Part shown: positions 6,318 to 18,400 of the stretch, piece after piece
How the letters are laid out: each line of letters begins with the position of its first letter
How positions within the stretch are numbered: the first letter of the stretch is position 1
Assembly: GCA_028278645.1 (NCBI GenBank)
Contig: JANQDZ010000098.1
Span: 1-59,187, forward strand
Direction of reading: 5' to 3'
Origin: Longimicrobiales bacterium
GTDB taxonomy: Bacteria; Gemmatimonadota; Gemmatimonadetes; Longimicrobiales; Gaopeijiaceae
DNA length: 59,187 nt
Notes under the pieces: model-generated
Databases searched by the model: none
Told to the model about the DNA's origin: nothing
The model's input: the letters and a program-made list of their open reading frames with translations, nothing else
Position numbers and translations under genes: made by a program

Positions 6318-6374
6318 AGCCGCCCATCGTAATCTCCCGGAACTCCACAACCTATCAAGCCGCGAGATTTGGTC

Positions 6375-9300
6375 ATGAAAAAGCCAGCCATGCTTGTTTC
6401 GATTCTCTCCCTCTTGCTGATTTCCGGCACGGCCTCGGCGCAGCAGACGTCCTTGAACGAGGCGGACCTCTCCGGCCTCTCCCTCCGAGAAATCGGTCCG
6501 GCACTGAACAGTGGCAGAATCGCCGATATCGATATCCACCCCAAGGACCCGAGCGTCATGTACGTGGCGGTGGGCTCCGGTGGGGTGTGGAAGACGACGA
6601 ATGCCGGGACCACGTGGGAGCCCGTCTTTGATGGGGAGTCGTCGTACAGTATCGGATCCGTGGCCATCGATCCGAGCGCCCCGGACGTCATTTGGGTCGG
6701 CACCGGCGAGGACGTGGGCGGCCGGCACGTCGGATACGGTGACGGGATCTATAAGAGTACCGACGGGGGCCAGACGTGGGAGAACATGGGTTTGGACGGC
6801 ACGGAGCACCTGTCCACCATCATCGTGCATCCAGAGGATTCGGACGTGGTCTGGGTGGCGGCCCAGGGCCCGCTTTGGAATTCCGGTGACGAGCGGGGTC
6901 TCTACAAGACTATGGACGGCGGAGAGACCTGGCTGAAGGTCCTGGGCAACGATGAGTGGACCGGCGTCACGGACGTCGTCATGGATCCCCGCAACCCGGA
7001 CCGGCTCTATGCCGCCACCTGGGATCGGCATCGAACGGTGGCGGCATACATGGGGGGCGGTCCCGGTTCCGGCGTATGGAAGACCGAGGATGGAGGGGAG
7101 ACGTGGAAGCAGCTCCGGACCGGCTTGCCCGGCGGGCCGCTGGGCAAGATCGGGCTGGCAATCTCACCACAGAAGCCCGACATCGTCTACGCGGCCATCG
7201 AGACGATCCGCGCCGAGGGCGGCGTATGGATGTCCGAGGACCGGGGCGAGTCGTGGCGGCAGATGTCCGATGCCGTGTCAAGCGCCACGGGTCCCCACTA
7301 TTACCAGGAGCTGTTCGCCTCGCCGCACAAGTTTGGCCGGCTCTTCCTGGTGAGTGCCACCACCCTCGTCAGTGACGACCATTTCGCTACGTATTACGGG
7401 CTCAACAACGAGGACAAGCACGGCGACGATCACGCCATCGCATTCCGTAAAGGTGATCCTGACTACATTCTCTTCGGGTCCGACGGCGGATTGTACGAAA
7501 GCTACGACGACATGGAGACCTGGCGGTACATGGCCAACCTCCCAGTGATGCAGTACTACAAGATCGCCGTGGATGACTCCGGGCCGTTCTACAAGGTTTA
7601 CGGTGGCACCCAGGACAACGGGTCCAACGGTGGGCCCATTCGGACCCCAAACGTCCATGGAATTCGCAACGCGGATTGGTTCACGACTCTGGGGGCCGAC
7701 GGGCAGGACCAGGCCGTGGAGCCGGGCAACCCGAACATCCACTACGGCGAGTTCCAGCAAGGCGTGATGTGGCGGACCGACCGGACTACGGGGGAGGCAG
7801 TGTTCATCCAACCCCAGGCCCGGGAGGGCGAGCCCTTCGAGCGGTTCAACTGGGACACCCCAATCGAGGTGAGCTTCCATCAGCCCACGCGGATCTTCAC
7901 CGGATCGTACCGGTTGTGGCGGAGCGACGATCGGGGCGACAGCTGGACGCCCATCTCCGGCGACCTGACACGGAGCCAGGAGCGAGTCGAACTCCCCATC
8001 ATGGGGCGCGTCCAGAGCTGGGATGCCGCCTGGGACGTGGGCGCCATGTCCAACTACAACACCGTCACTTCCATCGGCGAGAGCCCGCTTGACGAGAGCC
8101 TGATCTACGCGGGGACCGATGATGGCTTAATCTGGGTGACGGAGGACGGGGGCGGAGACTGGCGCCGGATCGAGGTCGGGGCCATGGCGAATGTGCCCGA
8201 TATGGCCTTTGTGAACGACGTGAAAGCCAGTCACCACGATCCGAACACGGTTTTTGTGGCTTTGGACAACCACAAATCCGGTGACTTCTCACCCTATCTC
8301 GTGAAGAGCGCGGACAAGGGTCAGACGTGGACGTCCATCGCCGGCAACCTCCCGGACCGGCATTTGGTCTGGCGGGTGGTCCAGGACCACGTGGACCCGG
8401 ACCTCCTCTTTGCAGCCACGGAGTTCGGCGTGTTCTTCACCGTGGACGGAGGCGAGGTGTGGACCGAGCTCCCCGGCGCGCCCACGATCTCTTTCCGGGA
8501 CATCGTGATCCATCGGGACCAAGAGGACCTGGTTGCCGCATCGTTCGGGCGCGGCATCTTCGTCCTGGACGACTACACCCCGTTGCGTGAAGGGGCAAAT
8601 GGACTGAACGGCGAGGCCATGCTCTTCGATACGCGAAGAGCGCTTTGGTACCAGCCGAAGGTGCTCCAGCACTCGCAGGGCGCGGACCAGTGGACCGCCG
8701 AGAACCCGCCTTTTGGTGCAGTCTTCACCTACTGGCTCCGGGACTCCTTTAAATCCCTTGAAGACGAGCGGAAGGCAGAGGAGAAAGAGATCCCGGCGGA
8801 CCAGGACATACCCTTCCCGGGGTGGGATGCTCTAGAGGCCGAAATGCGGGAACAGGGTCCAGCGGTCCAGGTGGTGATCCGGGACCGGAACGGCACGGTG
8901 GTCAACCGGGTGGACGGTCCCGTGTCCGCGGGGGTCCACAGGATCGCTTGGGATTTCCAGTATTCATCGGACGCCCGGATCGGTCTGGGCACCACCGATG
9001 AATTCAGCGGCGGGGTCCTGGCGCTGCCGGACACCTACACGGCCACCCTCATAAAGGTCGACGAGGGGGAGGTGACCGAGTTGGCCGGTCCGGTAGAGTT
9101 CCAGGTGGAGCCAGCCTTTGAGGGTGCCCTGCCCAGGGTCCCACCCAATGTCGTGGCTGCCTTCCGAGAGGAGGTCCAGGCATTGGCCGACGACCTCACG
9201 GAGGCTTCGGATCTCCTTCAGGAGCAGATCCGGAAGGTGGAGGCCATGCAGACGGCGCTGAGTCGGGCCGATTCCGTGGCTCCGGAATTGACCCGTCGGG

Positions 9301-9611
9301 TTTACCAGGCCCGCCTCGAACTCCTCGAGCTCAGGGAGCAGATGGAGGGGAGCGAAGCAAGGGGCGAGATCGGCGAACGGAGCCCTCCGACGCCGGGCGA
9401 CAGGCTTGGCGTGGGCTTTAACGGGATCAACACCACCTACGGCCCCACCGACATGCACCAACTGGCCGTCGATGCTGGACGGGCCGAGTTGGCTCCGATC
9501 CGCTTAGAGATCGATCGTTACGCCGAGGAGGTGGTGCCGGCGCTGGAGCGGGCCCTGGAGGGTATCGGGGCCCCTCCCATACAAAGAAGGGGTGGAGGCG
9601 GACGGGGCTGA
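6375..9611 (+). CDS. Secreted BNR/sortilin (VPS10)-like repeat protein
   Basis: A large exported protein of about 1078 residues. A signal peptide ends at ASAQQ. At least nine Asp-box/BNR motifs follow, for example TTNAGTTW, STDGGQTW, TMDGGETW, TEDGGETW, SEDRGESW, SDDRGDSW and SADKGQTW, typical of a multi-bladed sortilin/VPS10-like propeller. The last third has a FlgD-like Ig segment (VVIRDRNGTVVNRVDGPV), an alpha-helical, probably coiled-coil stretch, and a Gly/Arg-rich tail. Such proteins are common in Gemmatimonadota and Bacteroidota and are often annotated as glycosyl hydrolases, but no catalytic residues can be assigned. ATG 6375 is preferred to TTG 6369, which is two codons upstream; the ribosome site is weak in either case. 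Confidence 0.8.
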   Translation: MKKPAMLVSILSLLLISGTASAQQTSLNEADLSGLSLREIGPALNSGRIADIDIHPKDPSVMYVAVGSGGVWKTTNAGTTWEPVFDGESSYSIGSVAIDPSAPDVIWVGTGEDVGGRHVGYGDGIYKSTDGGQTWENMGLDGTEHLSTIIVHPEDSDVVWVAAQGPLWNSGDERGLYKTMDGGETWLKVLGNDEWTGVTDVVMDPRNPDRLYAATWDRHRTVAAYMGGGPGSGVWKTEDGGETWKQLRTGLPGGPLGKIGLAISPQKPDIVYAAIETIRAEGGVWMSEDRGESWRQMSDAVSSATGPHYYQELFASPHKFGRLFLVSATTLVSDDHFATYYGLNNEDKHGDDHAIAFRKGDPDYILFGSDGGLYESYDDMETWRYMANLPVMQYYKIAVDDSGPFYKVYGGTQDNGSNGGPIRTPNVHGIRNADWFTTLGADGQDQAVEPGNPNIHYGEFQQGVMWRTDRTTGEAVFIQPQAREGEPFERFNWDTPIEVSFHQPTRIFTGSYRLWRSDDRGDSWTPISGDLTRSQERVELPIMGRVQSWDAAWDVGAMSNYNTVTSIGESPLDESLIYAGTDDGLIWVTEDGGGDWRRIEVGAMANVPDMAFVNDVKASHHDPNTVFVALDNHKSGDFSPYLVKSADKGQTWTSIAGNLPDRHLVWRVVQDHVDPDLLFAATEFGVFFTVDGGEVWTELPGAPTISFRDIVIHRDQEDLVAASFGRGIFVLDDYTPLREGANGLNGEAMLFDTRRALWYQPKVLQHSQGADQWTAENPPFGAVFTYWLRDSFKSLEDERKAEEKEIPADQDIPFPGWDALEAEMREQGPAVQVVIRDRNGTVVNRVDGPVSAGVHRIAWDFQYSSDARIGLGTTDEFSGGVLALPDTYTATLIKVDEGEVTELAGPVEFQVEPAFEGALPRVPPNVVAAFREEVQALADDLTEASDLLQEQIRKVEAMQTALSRADSVAPELTRRVYQARLELLELREQMEGSEARGEIGERSPPTPGDRLGVGFNGINTTYGPTDMHQLAVDAGRAELAPIRLEIDRYAEEVVPALERALEGIGAPPIQRRGGGGRG

Positions 9612-9672
9612 TATGGGCAAGCGGCTCTCACCCAGGGGCCGTTTCTACCTGCGACTTGACCATGGAGTAGGG

Positions 9673-9930
9673 ATGACCGTGACTGACCACATGAAGATCG
9701 AGATCGAGTACTGCGTCCAATGAAACTTCCTCCCCATGGCCGCCAGTTTGGCGGCGAGGATCGAGGATGAGTTCGGGATCGTACCGGAGCTCATTGGAGG
9801 CGGCGGCGGCATATTTGAGTTGACCATCAACGACACTGTTGTCTTTTCGCACCGGGGTTCGAGCAGTCAGATCCCAACGGATGAACGGCTCCTCCAGGAA
9901 ATCCGGAAATATCTGGACGGGCTTTCATAA
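9673..9930 (+). CDS. selW: SelW/Rdx-family selenoprotein with in-frame TGA (Sec)
   Basis: Small thioredoxin-fold redox protein of the Rdx (SelW/SelT/SelH) family, 85 residues when TGA 9721-9723 is read as selenocysteine (residue 17). Upstream of the TGA the frame reads KIEIEYCVQ and downstream NFLP, giving the family's CxxU redox motif. After it come LAARIEDEFGIVPELI, GGGGGIFELTINDTVVFS and a C-terminal helix, all in family register. GGAG at 9664-9667 supports ATG 9673; in-frame GTG 9679 and ATG 9691 are alternatives. A bacterial SECIS hairpin follows the TGA. Read conventionally, only a 64-codon fragment starting at ATG 9736 inside the SECIS would be seen, and that would lack the active site. 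Sec insertion requires SelA/B/C/D, none of which is in the window. Confidence 0.88.
9728..9760 (+). promoter_or_regulatory. Bacterial SECIS element
   Basis: Stem-loop just downstream of the Sec TGA. GCCGCCA (9739-9745) pairs perfectly with TGGCGGC (9749-9755) around a GTT loop. TCCTC (9728-9732) pairs with GAGGA (9756-9760) below a 6-base bulge. The apical loop begins 23 bases after the TGA and starts with G, matching the known bacterial SECIS geometry (loop roughly 16-37 bases downstream with a conserved loop guanosine for SelB binding). Confidence 0.85.
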
Positions 9931-12672: not shown

Positions 12673-15399
12673 TCAGTCGCCCAACGCCGGCTCCAGCTCC
12701 TCGGCCAGCTCCACCTTGCACGCACAGCACTTGTACTCTGCCGTGCGGGTAATGTTGTCGAAGGCGTCGTTGGTCAGGAGGTTGGTGGAGGTTTCCGCGA
12801 AGTGGAATGGCATCCACACGGCACCCGGCCGGGTCCTGTCAGCCACCCGGGCCAACACGACCACAGAACCCCTCCGGGTGGTCACCCGCACCCGGTCTCC
12901 GTGCCTGATCCCGAGCCTCTCGGCGTCTTTTGGGTTCACTTCGACGAAGCTTTCCGCTTCCTTCTGGTTAATGACCTCACTGCCTCGGGTCATGTTGCCG
13001 ATGTTGTAGTGATAGAGCGTCCGGCCGGTGGACAACACCAGCGGATAATCGCCATCGGGCACCTCATCGGGGGGCCGGAAGGTGATGGGGTTCATCAGGC
13101 CTTTGCCCCGGGTGAACTGCCCCTGGTGCAGGAACTCGGTCCCCGGGTGGTCGTCGGACGGACACGGCCACTGGAGGCCGACGTCGTCGATCCGCTCGTA
13201 CGACATGCCGCCATAGCTGGGCGTCAGGCTGGCCATCTCGTCGAAGATTTCGCTGGGGGACTCGTAGCTCATGGGGTAACCCATGGCTGTCGATACGTCG
13301 CAGAGGATCTGCCAATCGGGGCGAGCCAGACCGGGAGCATCCACGGCCTTTCGGACACGCTGTACCCGCCGCTCGGAGTTGGTGAACGTGCCGTCTTTCT
13401 CGGCGAAACAGGTGGCCGGAAGCACCACGTCAGCGAGCTTGGCCGTCTCGGTCATGAAGATTTCCTGGACCACGATGAAATCCAGCTTCTTCAGGTTCTC
13501 GATGACCTTCGTCTGGTTGGGCTCACTCCGGACCGGGTCCTCTCCAAAGGCATAGAGCCCCTTCAGCACGCCTTCACCGGCCTTCTCCACGAAGTCCGTG
13601 ATCCGGCCGCCCCGGTTCGTGGGAATCTCCACACCCCAGGCTGAACCGAACTTCTCCCGTACAGCTTCGTCGGCGACTTTCTGGTAGCCGGGGAAGACCG
13701 AGTGGATGGCGCCCATGTCGCAGCCACCCTGGACGTTGTTCTGGCCCCGGAGGGGATTTACGCCGGAGGACCGCTTCCCGATGTGACCGGTCAGCATGGC
13801 CAGGTTGGCCAGGTTCATGACGTTCTCGGTCCCACAGGTGTGCTCGGTGATGCCCAGAGTGTAGAAGATGGCCGATGGGGTTCCCTTGGCGTACATCTCG
13901 GCCGCCGCCCGGATGTCATCGGCGCTCACGCCGCATCCCTCAGCCGCGGCCTCGATGTCGAAGCCCTTGAGGTTCTCCACAAACGCTTCGAAGTTTTCGA
14001 CGCGCTCGGCGACGAACTCTTTGTCGTAGAGCTCAATGTCGAGGAGGTGCCTCATCATGGCGTTGATGAGGAGGTTGTCGGAGCCGTGGGCCTGCTGAAT
14101 GTGGATGTCGGCCCGCTTGGCGACCCAGGTCTTTCTTGGATCGCAGACGATCATCTTGGCGCCCTTCCGTAGCGCCTTCTTCATCTCATACCCGATGATG
14201 GGGTGGGCCTCGGTTGGGTTGGAGCCGATGATGAACAGCGTCTCGACGTCTTTGATCTCGTCGATGGAGTTGGTCATGGCTCCGGACCCGAAAGCTGTAG
14301 CCAACCCGGCCACGGTGGGTGCATGACAGGTGGTGGCGCACTGGTCGATGTTGTTCGTTTGCCCAGCCGTGCGGGCGATCTTCTGCATCAAGAAGTTCTC
14401 TTCGTTGGTGCAGCGGCAGGAACTCAGGAAGGCGATGCCCTCCGGCCCGTGATCGTCCCGGGCTTTGGCCAGGCCCTCGCCAGCGACCTTCAAGGCCTCT
14501 TCCCAGGAAGCTTCCCTGAACTCACCGTTCTCACGGATGAGGGGGGTGGTCAGTCGGTCAGGGGAGCTCACGAACTGGGCTCCGAACCGACCCTTCACAC
14601 ACGTGTTCCCGTCGTTGACCACCGAGCCGGCCTCACTGGTCACCCGGACGATCCGGTTGGTCTTGGTGTTGACGTTCAGGTCGATCTGACAGCCCACCCC
14701 GCAGTACGTACAGGTCGTCCTGACCTTCTCCAGGTCTTTCGCCCGACCCTTGCCGACCGCGGCGCTCTCCCAGAGGGCGGCCGTGGGGCACGCACTCACA
14801 CAGAGGCCGCAGAGCTCGCAGGTCGTCTCGTTGAGGGGTAGATCGAACGCAGTGCTGATCCGGACGTCCAGGGCCCTTCCTTTCAGGGCGAGGGCGTCGA
14901 CCATGGCCACCTCTGAGCAGATCTTCACACAGAGCTGGCATCGCACGCACTTGGCTGGATCGTAGATGATGCCACGGTTCCCTCCGGTGTACACCGGCCC
15001 CGACTCTTCGGGGACGAGGGAGCCGAAGTGCCCAAGGTCGGCCCCGTACTCGTAGGAGTAATCCTGCAGCAGGCAGTCGCCGTCCGAGTCACAGCTCGTG
15101 CATCGGGCGTCGTGCTCACTCAGGAAGAACTCGAGGGTCATCTTCCGGGAGGCCCTGATGGTGGGGGTTTCGGTCTCGACCTTCATCCCCTCCTCCGCCA
15201 ACCGAGTGCAGGACGTCTGCAGGCCGTTCTCTCCCTCGACTTCCACCACACAAAGACGGCACGAGCCCGTCGCGGACACGCGGGGGTCATAGCAGAGACG
15301 GGGGATATGTATGTCGTTGGCCAATGCCACCTCGAGAATCGACTGGTTCTCCTGGGCGACGACTGCTTGGCCGTTAATCGTCAGATTTTTGGTGCTCAT
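12673..15399 (-). CDS. fdhA: NAD(P)-linked formate dehydrogenase catalytic subunit (complex 1)
   Basis: Molybdo(tungsto)-bis-PGD formate dehydrogenase of about 908 residues that oxidises formate to CO2. Order: NuoG-like [2Fe-2S] domain (CYDP, then GSCRLC); His-Cys cluster HDARCTSC...GDC; two ferredoxin-type clusters (CVRCQLCVKIC, CELCGLCVSAC); the [4Fe-4S] motif CTYCGVGC; then the large catalytic body. The active-site residue is cysteine in CATTCHAPTVAGL, at the place of Sec in E. coli FdhF (U-H-G-P). The start at ATG 15399 follows GGGAGAAG. It ends a nuoE, nuoF-gltD, fdhA operon (gap 16 bases), making a soluble cytoplasmic complex. It needs FdhD and MobA, encoded at 38-39.6 kb. Confidence 0.9.
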   Translation of the reverse strand: MSTKNLTINGQAVVAQENQSILEVALANDIHIPRLCYDPRVSATGSCRLCVVEVEGENGLQTSCTRLAEEGMKVETETPTIRASRKMTLEFFLSEHDARCTSCDSDGDCLLQDYSYEYGADLGHFGSLVPEESGPVYTGGNRGIIYDPAKCVRCQLCVKICSEVAMVDALALKGRALDVRISTAFDLPLNETTCELCGLCVSACPTAALWESAAVGKGRAKDLEKVRTTCTYCGVGCQIDLNVNTKTNRIVRVTSEAGSVVNDGNTCVKGRFGAQFVSSPDRLTTPLIRENGEFREASWEEALKVAGEGLAKARDDHGPEGIAFLSSCRCTNEENFLMQKIARTAGQTNNIDQCATTCHAPTVAGLATAFGSGAMTNSIDEIKDVETLFIIGSNPTEAHPIIGYEMKKALRKGAKMIVCDPRKTWVAKRADIHIQQAHGSDNLLINAMMRHLLDIELYDKEFVAERVENFEAFVENLKGFDIEAAAEGCGVSADDIRAAAEMYAKGTPSAIFYTLGITEHTCGTENVMNLANLAMLTGHIGKRSSGVNPLRGQNNVQGGCDMGAIHSVFPGYQKVADEAVREKFGSAWGVEIPTNRGGRITDFVEKAGEGVLKGLYAFGEDPVRSEPNQTKVIENLKKLDFIVVQEIFMTETAKLADVVLPATCFAEKDGTFTNSERRVQRVRKAVDAPGLARPDWQILCDVSTAMGYPMSYESPSEIFDEMASLTPSYGGMSYERIDDVGLQWPCPSDDHPGTEFLHQGQFTRGKGLMNPITFRPPDEVPDGDYPLVLSTGRTLYHYNIGNMTRGSEVINQKEAESFVEVNPKDAERLGIRHGDRVRVTTRRGSVVVLARVADRTRPGAVWMPFHFAETSTNLLTNDAFDNITRTAEYKCCACKVELAEELEPALGD

Positions 15400-15415
15400 G
15401 TTCTTCTCCCGATCC

Positions 15416-18400
15416 CTAAGACCGCAGTTTTTCGAGGTCACAACGGAGGCAGCGGTTGGCTTCGGCACAGGCTCCCTCTTTGCCGAACCCGTGGACAACC
15501 TCACGGAAGTCGCTCAGACGGTCGGCCAGGGCCACCATGGGCTCCTCTGCCATGGGAGGCGCGTTCTCCAACTCTTCGTCCGAGGCCCGATGGATGCTCA
15601 CGAGCATGTCCGGGGGCAGGACGCCGGGGCCACCCAGGTACCGGTCGATGGAGAGGGCCGCGATCTGGCCGTCTGCGATAGCCTTGATCACCGTGCTTCC
15701 GCCGTTGTTCACGTCACCACCGGAGAACACGCCCTCTTCTGACGTGGCCAGCGTCAGTTCGTCGCTCACCATGGTGTTCCACGGAGTGATCTCGAGCCCG
15801 TCCGCCGCCTCGATGGAGGCCCTCTGCCCGATGGCGGGGAGGACCATGTCACATTCGACGACGAACTCGCTCCCTTCCAGAGGAACCGGGCGCCGGCGAC
15901 CGCTGTCGTCGGGTTTACCAAGCTCCATCCGGATCATCTCGATGCCCGTCACCTTGCCGTCCTCGCCAATCACCCGGCTGGGAGCCACCAGCTCATGGAG
16001 TTCACAGCCTTCCAGCAGTGCTTCCTCGATCTCCTCTTCGTAGGCCGGCATCTCTTCCCGGGTCCGCCGGTAGAGGATCAAGACATCTTCTGCTCCCAGG
16101 CGCACGGCCGAGCGGGCTGCGTCGATGGCTGCGTTCCCGCCTCCGATGATGACCACTCGTTTTCCGCACTCTGGGTTCTGGCCCAGGCCCCGGGCCCGAA
16201 GGAACTCGAGGGAGTCGGCTACGCCTTCGAGATCTTCACCCTCGATCCCCATCTTCCGGCCTTTCTGGGCCCCCGTGGCCATGAAGATGGCCCGGTATCC
16301 CTCGACCTTCAGTTGCTCGATGCTCTCGACGGGCGTGTTTGTTCTGAGGTCAACGCCGTGGCGGACGATGAAATCAACGTCCTTCTCGATCATGTCCTTG
16401 GGAAGTCGGTATTCGGGGATGCCCAGGGCCAGCATTCCCCCGGGGATCGGCTGCTTCTCGAAGACCACCGATTTCCGCCCCATGACGGCCAGGAAGTAGG
16501 CACAGGTGAGGCCCGCAGGGCCCGCGCCGATGATAGCCACCTCGGGATCCCCGGTGGTAGGCGGTCCTACGGTTGGGGATAGCCCGGTTGCGTTGTCGGC
16601 GGCGTACCGTTTGAGCGCCCGGATGGCGATAGGGTCGTCCAGGTCGGCACGACGACAGCGGGATTGGCAGGGGTGATCACAAACCCGGCCGCAGACCGAC
16701 ACGAAGGGGTTCCTGCGGCGGATCACGTCGACCGCGTCGTCGAGCTTTCCTTCGGCGACCAGGCCGATGTACTGGGGCACATTCACATGGGCCGGACAGG
16801 TGTGGGAGCAGGGCGCATCCACCAAGTGATCACAGACGGCTGCCCGACAATGCTTGTGCTTGATGTGCTCTTCGTATTCCTCCCGGAAGTACCGGAGGGT
16901 GGTCAAAACCGGATTGGGAGCCGAGGTCCCGAGGCCACAGAGGGAAGCCTCCATGATGTGCTCGGCCAGGGCCTCCAGCTCATCCAGGTCCTCCATCTTG
17001 CCTTGGCCCCGGGTGATCCGGTCCAGGATATCGTACATGTGGCGGGTGCCCACCCGGCACGGTACACACTTCCCGCACGACTCGTCCTGGGTGAATTCCA
17101 GGAAGTACTTGGCGATGTTCACCATGCAGGTGCTCTCGTCCATGACAATGAGACCACCTGAGCCCATGATGGCGCCGGCCTCCTGCACCGAGTCGTAGTC
17201 GATGGGAAGGTCGAGGTACTGCATGGGGATGCAGCCACCGGAGGGGCCACCGAGCTGCGCGGCTTTGAAGGGTTTGTTGTTGGGGATCCCGCCGCCCACG
17301 TCGTAGATCATCTGTCGCAGGGTTGTCCCCATGGGGACTTCAACCAGGCCGGTGTTGTTCACCTTCCCGGCCAGGGCGAAGATCTTCGTGCCGGTGCTGC
17401 CCTCAGTTCCGATACCCCGATACCAGTCCTTCCCGTTGAGGACGATGAGGGGGAGGTTGGCCAGGGTTTCGACGTTGTTTATGCAGGTCGGCTGGCCTTC
17501 GTACCCTTTCACCACCGGGTAGGGGGGGCGTGACTGGGGCATCCCCCGCTCACCCTCCAGGGAGGCGATGAGGGCGGTTTCCTCACCGCAAACGAAGGCG
17601 CCGGCGCCTTCCCGGATGTCTACGTCGAAAGCGACCCCTGTACCGAGGACATCGTCACCCAGGAGCCCCGCTCGCCGGGCTTCTTCGATGGCGAGTCTGG
17701 TGTTGGTCACGGCCAGGGGGTATTCGGCCCGGACGTAGATGATGCCCTTTGTGGCGCCGATGGCGTAGCCCGCGATCATCATCCCTTCGATGATGGCGTG
17801 AGGGGTACCCTCCAAGAGGGAGCGGTCCATGAACGCGCCCGGGTCCCCTTCGTCCGCGTTACAGATGATGTATTTCTGGTCGGCCGGAGACTTCCGGGCC
17901 AGACCCCACTTCACGCCGGTGGGGAATCCGGCTCCGCCGCGGCCCCGGAGGCCGGCCTCCGTCACCTCTTCCACGACCTCATCAGGGGTCATTTCCTCGA
18001 GGGCCTTGATGGCGGCCGCGTAGCCGTCATGGGCCACATAGTCCCCAAGAGCTGTCGGATCGATGAGACCATTCAGCCGGAAGACCAACCGCTCCTGTTT
18101 GGCGTAGAAGGGCACTTCGTGGTCCAGTATGATCTTTGATTTGGTGGCCGGATCTACATAAAGGAGCCGGTCCACGACCTCTCCGCCCAGGATCGTCTTC
18201 TCGACGATCTCGGTGGCGTCTTCGGCCTGGATGCTGGAGTAGAACACCTTGTCCGGCTGTGTGACGACCACCGGGCCCTTCTCACAGAGGCCGTGACAGC
18301 CCGTGGCTTTCACCTTGACACTGTCCTGGGCGCCGGCCTTCTCGATGGCGTTCTCGAAGGCCTCCTCTACGACTTGTGCCCCGAAGGCCGTACACCCGGT

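Follow-up and report, generated by a model that had tools for sequence, protein, structure and literature searches.

The gene at positions 9673–9930 on the forward strand of the window, the whole 59,187-nt stretch of DNA analysed here, is predicted to encode a SelW-like selenoprotein of the Rdx family, with UGA 9721–9723 decoded as selenocysteine (Sec). We assign this reading a probability of about 96%. Because the genome carries the full Sec machinery and the RNA signal that follows the codon is conserved in relatives, the apparent stop in the active site is almost certainly a Sec codon. The initial annotation had proposed a SelW/Rdx selenoprotein read through an in-frame TGA, and this proposal, with Sec as the predicted residue, is supported by the family match, the machinery, 19 other genomes with the same TGA and a covarying hairpin. 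The locus comprises the following features.

9664–9667, forward strand: possible ribosome-binding site GGAG, read directly from the sequence
9673–9930, forward strand: predicted SelW-like (Rdx family) selenoprotein gene of 85 codons, TGA read as Sec, stop TAA 9928–9930, alternative start ATG 9691
9712–9723, forward strand: redox motif C-V-Q-U (Cys14 ... Sec17), both positions invariant Cys/Sec in a 14-sequence protein alignment in which Sec is written as C
9721–9723, forward strand: in-frame TGA, the predicted Sec codon; elsewhere in the order this codon is TGA in 19 genomes and TGC in two
9739–9755, forward strand: bacterial SECIS-like hairpin GCCGCCA-GUU-UGGCGGC, with a 7-bp stem (9739–9745 with 9749–9755) and a loop (9746–9748) that has G first

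The frame was verified on the sequence and runs, as the initial annotation had it, from ATG 9673 through the TGA to TAA 9928–9930. Read with TGA as U, it gives a product of 85 residues, MTVTDHMKIEIEYCVQUNFLPMAASLAARIEDEFGIVPELIGGGGGIFELTINDTVVFSHRGSSSQIPTDERLLQEIRKYLDGLS, in which the TGA falls at residue 17. ATG 9673 is favoured as the start because the GGAG sits 5 nt upstream of it; the gene could instead start at ATG 9691, the codon for Met7, which is the position at which the relatives start in the protein alignment. In the window, 712 TGA codons have an upstream start, and 28 of these combine a CxxU, CxU, UxxC or UxC motif with at least 30 codons downstream. Of these 28, the frame through TGA 9721–9723 was the only one assigned to a protein family; the remaining 27 were inspected by eye. 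Since this is also the sole TGA with the conserved hairpin geometry, the Rdx frame is not a product of chance.

Rdx-family sequence had been claimed on either side of the TGA, and a search with the full 85-residue product returned a full-length match to Pfam Rdx (PF10262) that spans both sides, residues 8–79 aligning with profile positions 1–74 of 74 (2.9e-13; 50.3 bits against a cut-off of 22.6). The product also scores above the cut-off of TIGR02174, CXXU_selWTH (5.5e-11; 42.6 bits against 34.2). It matches NF041051, SelTWH_Campy, at 9.2e-16 and 57.9 bits, below the curated equivalog cut-off of 88, and so lies outside that sub-group. The TGA does occupy the second redox position of a CxxU motif, as proposed: the motif C14-V-Q-U17 lies near the N-terminus, with U17 aligned with Cys in relatives. 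Relatives with solved structures include 3dex, 2fa8, 2ojl, 2oka and C17orf37 (2ljk), and the U position is Cys in both printed alignments with solved structures. From the sequence match to these Rdx proteins we infer a thioredoxin-like fold, and what is known of the family makes a small redox protein the most likely role. Cys-form Rdx proteins were widespread in a scan of named genomes, in which Cys was back-translated as TGY and thus only Cys forms were detectable.

UGA is normally read as a stop under translation table 11, and an ATG (9736) follows it shortly, from which exactly 64 codons can be read, the length that the initial annotation had given for the fragment. Termination at the UGA, leaving either a pseudogene or this fragment as the only product, is nonetheless exceedingly unlikely. 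The fragment would be without the CxxC/U active site, Rdx sequence is kept on both sides of a single TGA in an otherwise undamaged frame, relatives have kept the TGA, and the genome has a complete Sec machinery.

The source genome is a 4.9-Mb draft in 103 contigs (95.6% complete, 1.9% contamination). A search for selA, selB, selC (tRNA-Sec) and selD in the rest of this genome had been proposed as a check, and all four were found above their curated cut-offs; selB and selC, whose absence had been named as evidence against a selenoprotein, are both present. The single tRNA-Sec scores 75.4 bits (Rfam cut-off 47) and was confirmed by ARAGORN as tRNA-SeC with anticodon tca, while selB scores 317.8 bits (cut-off 242), selA 532.7 bits (cut-off 268) and selD 377.1 bits (cut-off 125). 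The SelB protein has the winged-helix domains PF09106 and PF09107 at its C-terminus, and in known SelB proteins the C-terminal winged-helix domains bind the SECIS. The selD gene has one in-frame TGA of its own.

G000:C84:26928–27851, reverse strand: selD (L015), with the in-frame TGA at the catalytic position, motif HGSGUACK

This motif aligns with HGAGCGCK of the solved SelD 3u0o. With its TGA at the catalytic position, the selenophosphate synthetase would itself be a selenoprotein. A second, independent gene of the source genome thus also appears to use Sec, which indicates that Sec is used in at least two genes, the selW-like gene, present in one copy, and selD.

When the protein was searched against 154 genomes from the order, 24 gave matches, and these were read codon by codon. 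The codon at the CxxU position is TGA in 20 genomes, the source included, and TGC in two (L036 in G008 and L035 in G140), such that this position is held by either UGA or Cys in relatives; one match was set aside and one is not an Rdx protein, and both are left out of the TGA-Rdx counts. The match that is not Rdx, L042 (G045), was rejected since it has no CxxC/U motif. The one set aside, L039 (G055:C229:8756–8962), is an Rdx-like frame that contains two TGAs and whose motif region is shifted (FCKTUASYRPRAAR ... GEFTVU); one extra residue follows the first TGA, and the second may be an ordinary stop. We found selA in all 20 TGA-Rdx genomes versus 86 of the 134 others (Fisher p = 4.5e-4, a value that includes the effect of genome relatedness). 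A tRNA-Sec was matched in 17 of the 20 and was not found in G003, G054 and G153, all three of them drafts and all with selA. As for the TGC forms, G008 has both tRNA-Sec and selA, and G140 is absent from both lists.

Identity between the window protein and its nearest TGA relatives is only about 40%, and no close orthologue is available among the genomes of the order. The two same-genus genomes G051 and G052 (90% and 67% complete) gave no Rdx match, so the gene is patchy; this suggests that loss or transfer has shaped its distribution, or that the drafts are incomplete. In neither congeneric genome did we find a syntenic locus, the flanking genes showing scattered similarity only. G051 has tRNA-Sec and selA despite its missing Rdx match.

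The stem of the hairpin, a feature absent from the initial annotation, begins 15 nt past the last base of the UGA, the spacing from UGA to loop is 22 nt, and positions 9718–9760 have a fold energy of −17.5 kcal/mol. The bacterial SECIS model calls for a small loop with G first and then U, a stem of 4–16 bp, a spacing of 16–37 nt and a stable fold (PMC13188914), and the hairpin satisfies these constraints with its GUU loop, 7 bp and 22 nt. Fit to this general model is weak evidence on its own, because a loose form of the rule (at least 7 bp, any spacing of 16–37 nt) fits 7.9% of the TGA trinucleotides in the window. The exact geometry occurs at one of the 1,613 TGA trinucleotides in the window, TGA 9721–9723, and in our reading of the sequences it is the fixed register and the covariation that carry the weight. 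When 19 TGA sequences (18 distinct) were aligned without gaps over 48 nt from the TGA, the same hairpin was predicted unprompted, and 98.4% of cells across the 19 sequences pair on this structure in a fixed register. Both bases differ in three of the seven pairs: eight sequences have U-A in place of G-C, one has U-A in place of C-G, and one has G-C in place of C-G. One further pair shows a C-G/U-G exchange. These counts are of sequences rather than independent events, and a single event may account for most of the eight-sequence change. None of 500 shuffles reached the covariation score of 0.270, with kinship among the sequences left in, and all slid registers scored far lower. The hairpin does not form in either of the TGC relatives. 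The window had no hit in an Rfam scan, a result that counts for little against an element as short as a SECIS. A tentative and rather doubtful interpretation is that the lineage has a divergent SelW-like branch, with a compact SECIS (7 bp, 3-nt loop) that stays in register across families within the order, and that this branch may have arrived by horizontal transfer, given the two same-genus genomes that gave no match.

These data also bear on whether the TGA is a sequencing or assembly error for TGC or TGT in the gene of an ordinary Cys Rdx protein. Such an error would take a single base, in a draft genome of 103 contigs, and Cys forms occur both in the same order and widely elsewhere. It would have to be set against 19 other genomes with TGA at the same codon, and against a covarying hairpin of a kind expected only after Sec codons, which neither Cys relative shows and which a base error would not create. 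Taken together, the conserved TGA, the machinery and the covarying hairpin make sequencing error very unlikely, as they do a pseudogene or an ordinary stop.

The evidence for readthrough is the reading frame, not an observed inserted residue, which is the point in favour of UGA being read by a route other than Sec, either near-cognate suppression or reassignment of UGA across the whole genome. We give this minimal probability, as table 11 suits the long open reading frames of the window, relatives have Cys at this position, and a SECIS hairpin and the Sec machinery are present. In the selenocysteine reading that we prefer, Sec-tRNA(Sec) with anticodon UCA, carried by SelB, would decode UGA 9721–9723, and SelB would bind the mRNA hairpin at 9739–9755 just downstream. 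The CxxU product, with its predicted thioredoxin-like fold, would most likely cycle between selenylsulfide and thiol/selenol forms. Both the insertion of Sec and the redox role are inferred from what is already established about the bacterial Sec system and the family.

Two other genes of the window were also considered.

6369–9611, forward strand: 1080-aa open reading frame immediately preceding the predicted selenoprotein gene, with Sortilin/Vps10 and BNR-type repeats
12673–15504, reverse strand: formate dehydrogenase alpha subunit (TIGR01591, 837.9 bits)

No selenium link was seen for the upstream reading frame. The active site of the formate dehydrogenase appears to hold Cys (QCATTCHAP) and not Sec, at what we take to be the active-site position from FdhF, and the enzyme is thus apparently Cys-using although the genome can make Sec.

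Bacterial SelW-like CxxU selenoproteins have been known since at least 2005. They formed the most abundant selenoprotein family in the Sargasso Sea set, with 48 genes (PMC1088965), and a 2026 review places them under PF10262 as a prokaryotic selenoprotein family whose prediction is of high confidence (PMC13188914). Misannotation of selenoprotein genes is common, since UGA is taken as a stop (PMC1088965, PMC13188914). The initial annotation's description of the gene as hidden holds insofar as a standard-code reading misses it, but misannotation of this kind was already on record in both sources. The gene is real and standard annotation, which would lose the active-site half of the protein, would miss it; SelW-like CxxU selenoproteins are already well known, and existing knowledge of selenoproteins is left unchanged. 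Further selenoproteins overlooked in this order could be sought with the simple geometric rule that the covarying SECIS provides.

Compared with known SelW-like (SELENOW-like) bacterial selenoproteins, the window protein is alike in family (PF10262), CxxU motif and size, and has in common with them a single predicted Sec at the second redox position and a SECIS directly after the UGA; beyond its identity of only about 40% to the nearest TGA relatives in the order, we saw nothing distinctive about it. With the Cys-containing Rdx proteins, such as Atu0228 (PDB 2fa8) and SAV_2001 (3dex), it shares the domain and the position of the motif, but these carry CxxC where the window protein has CxxU.
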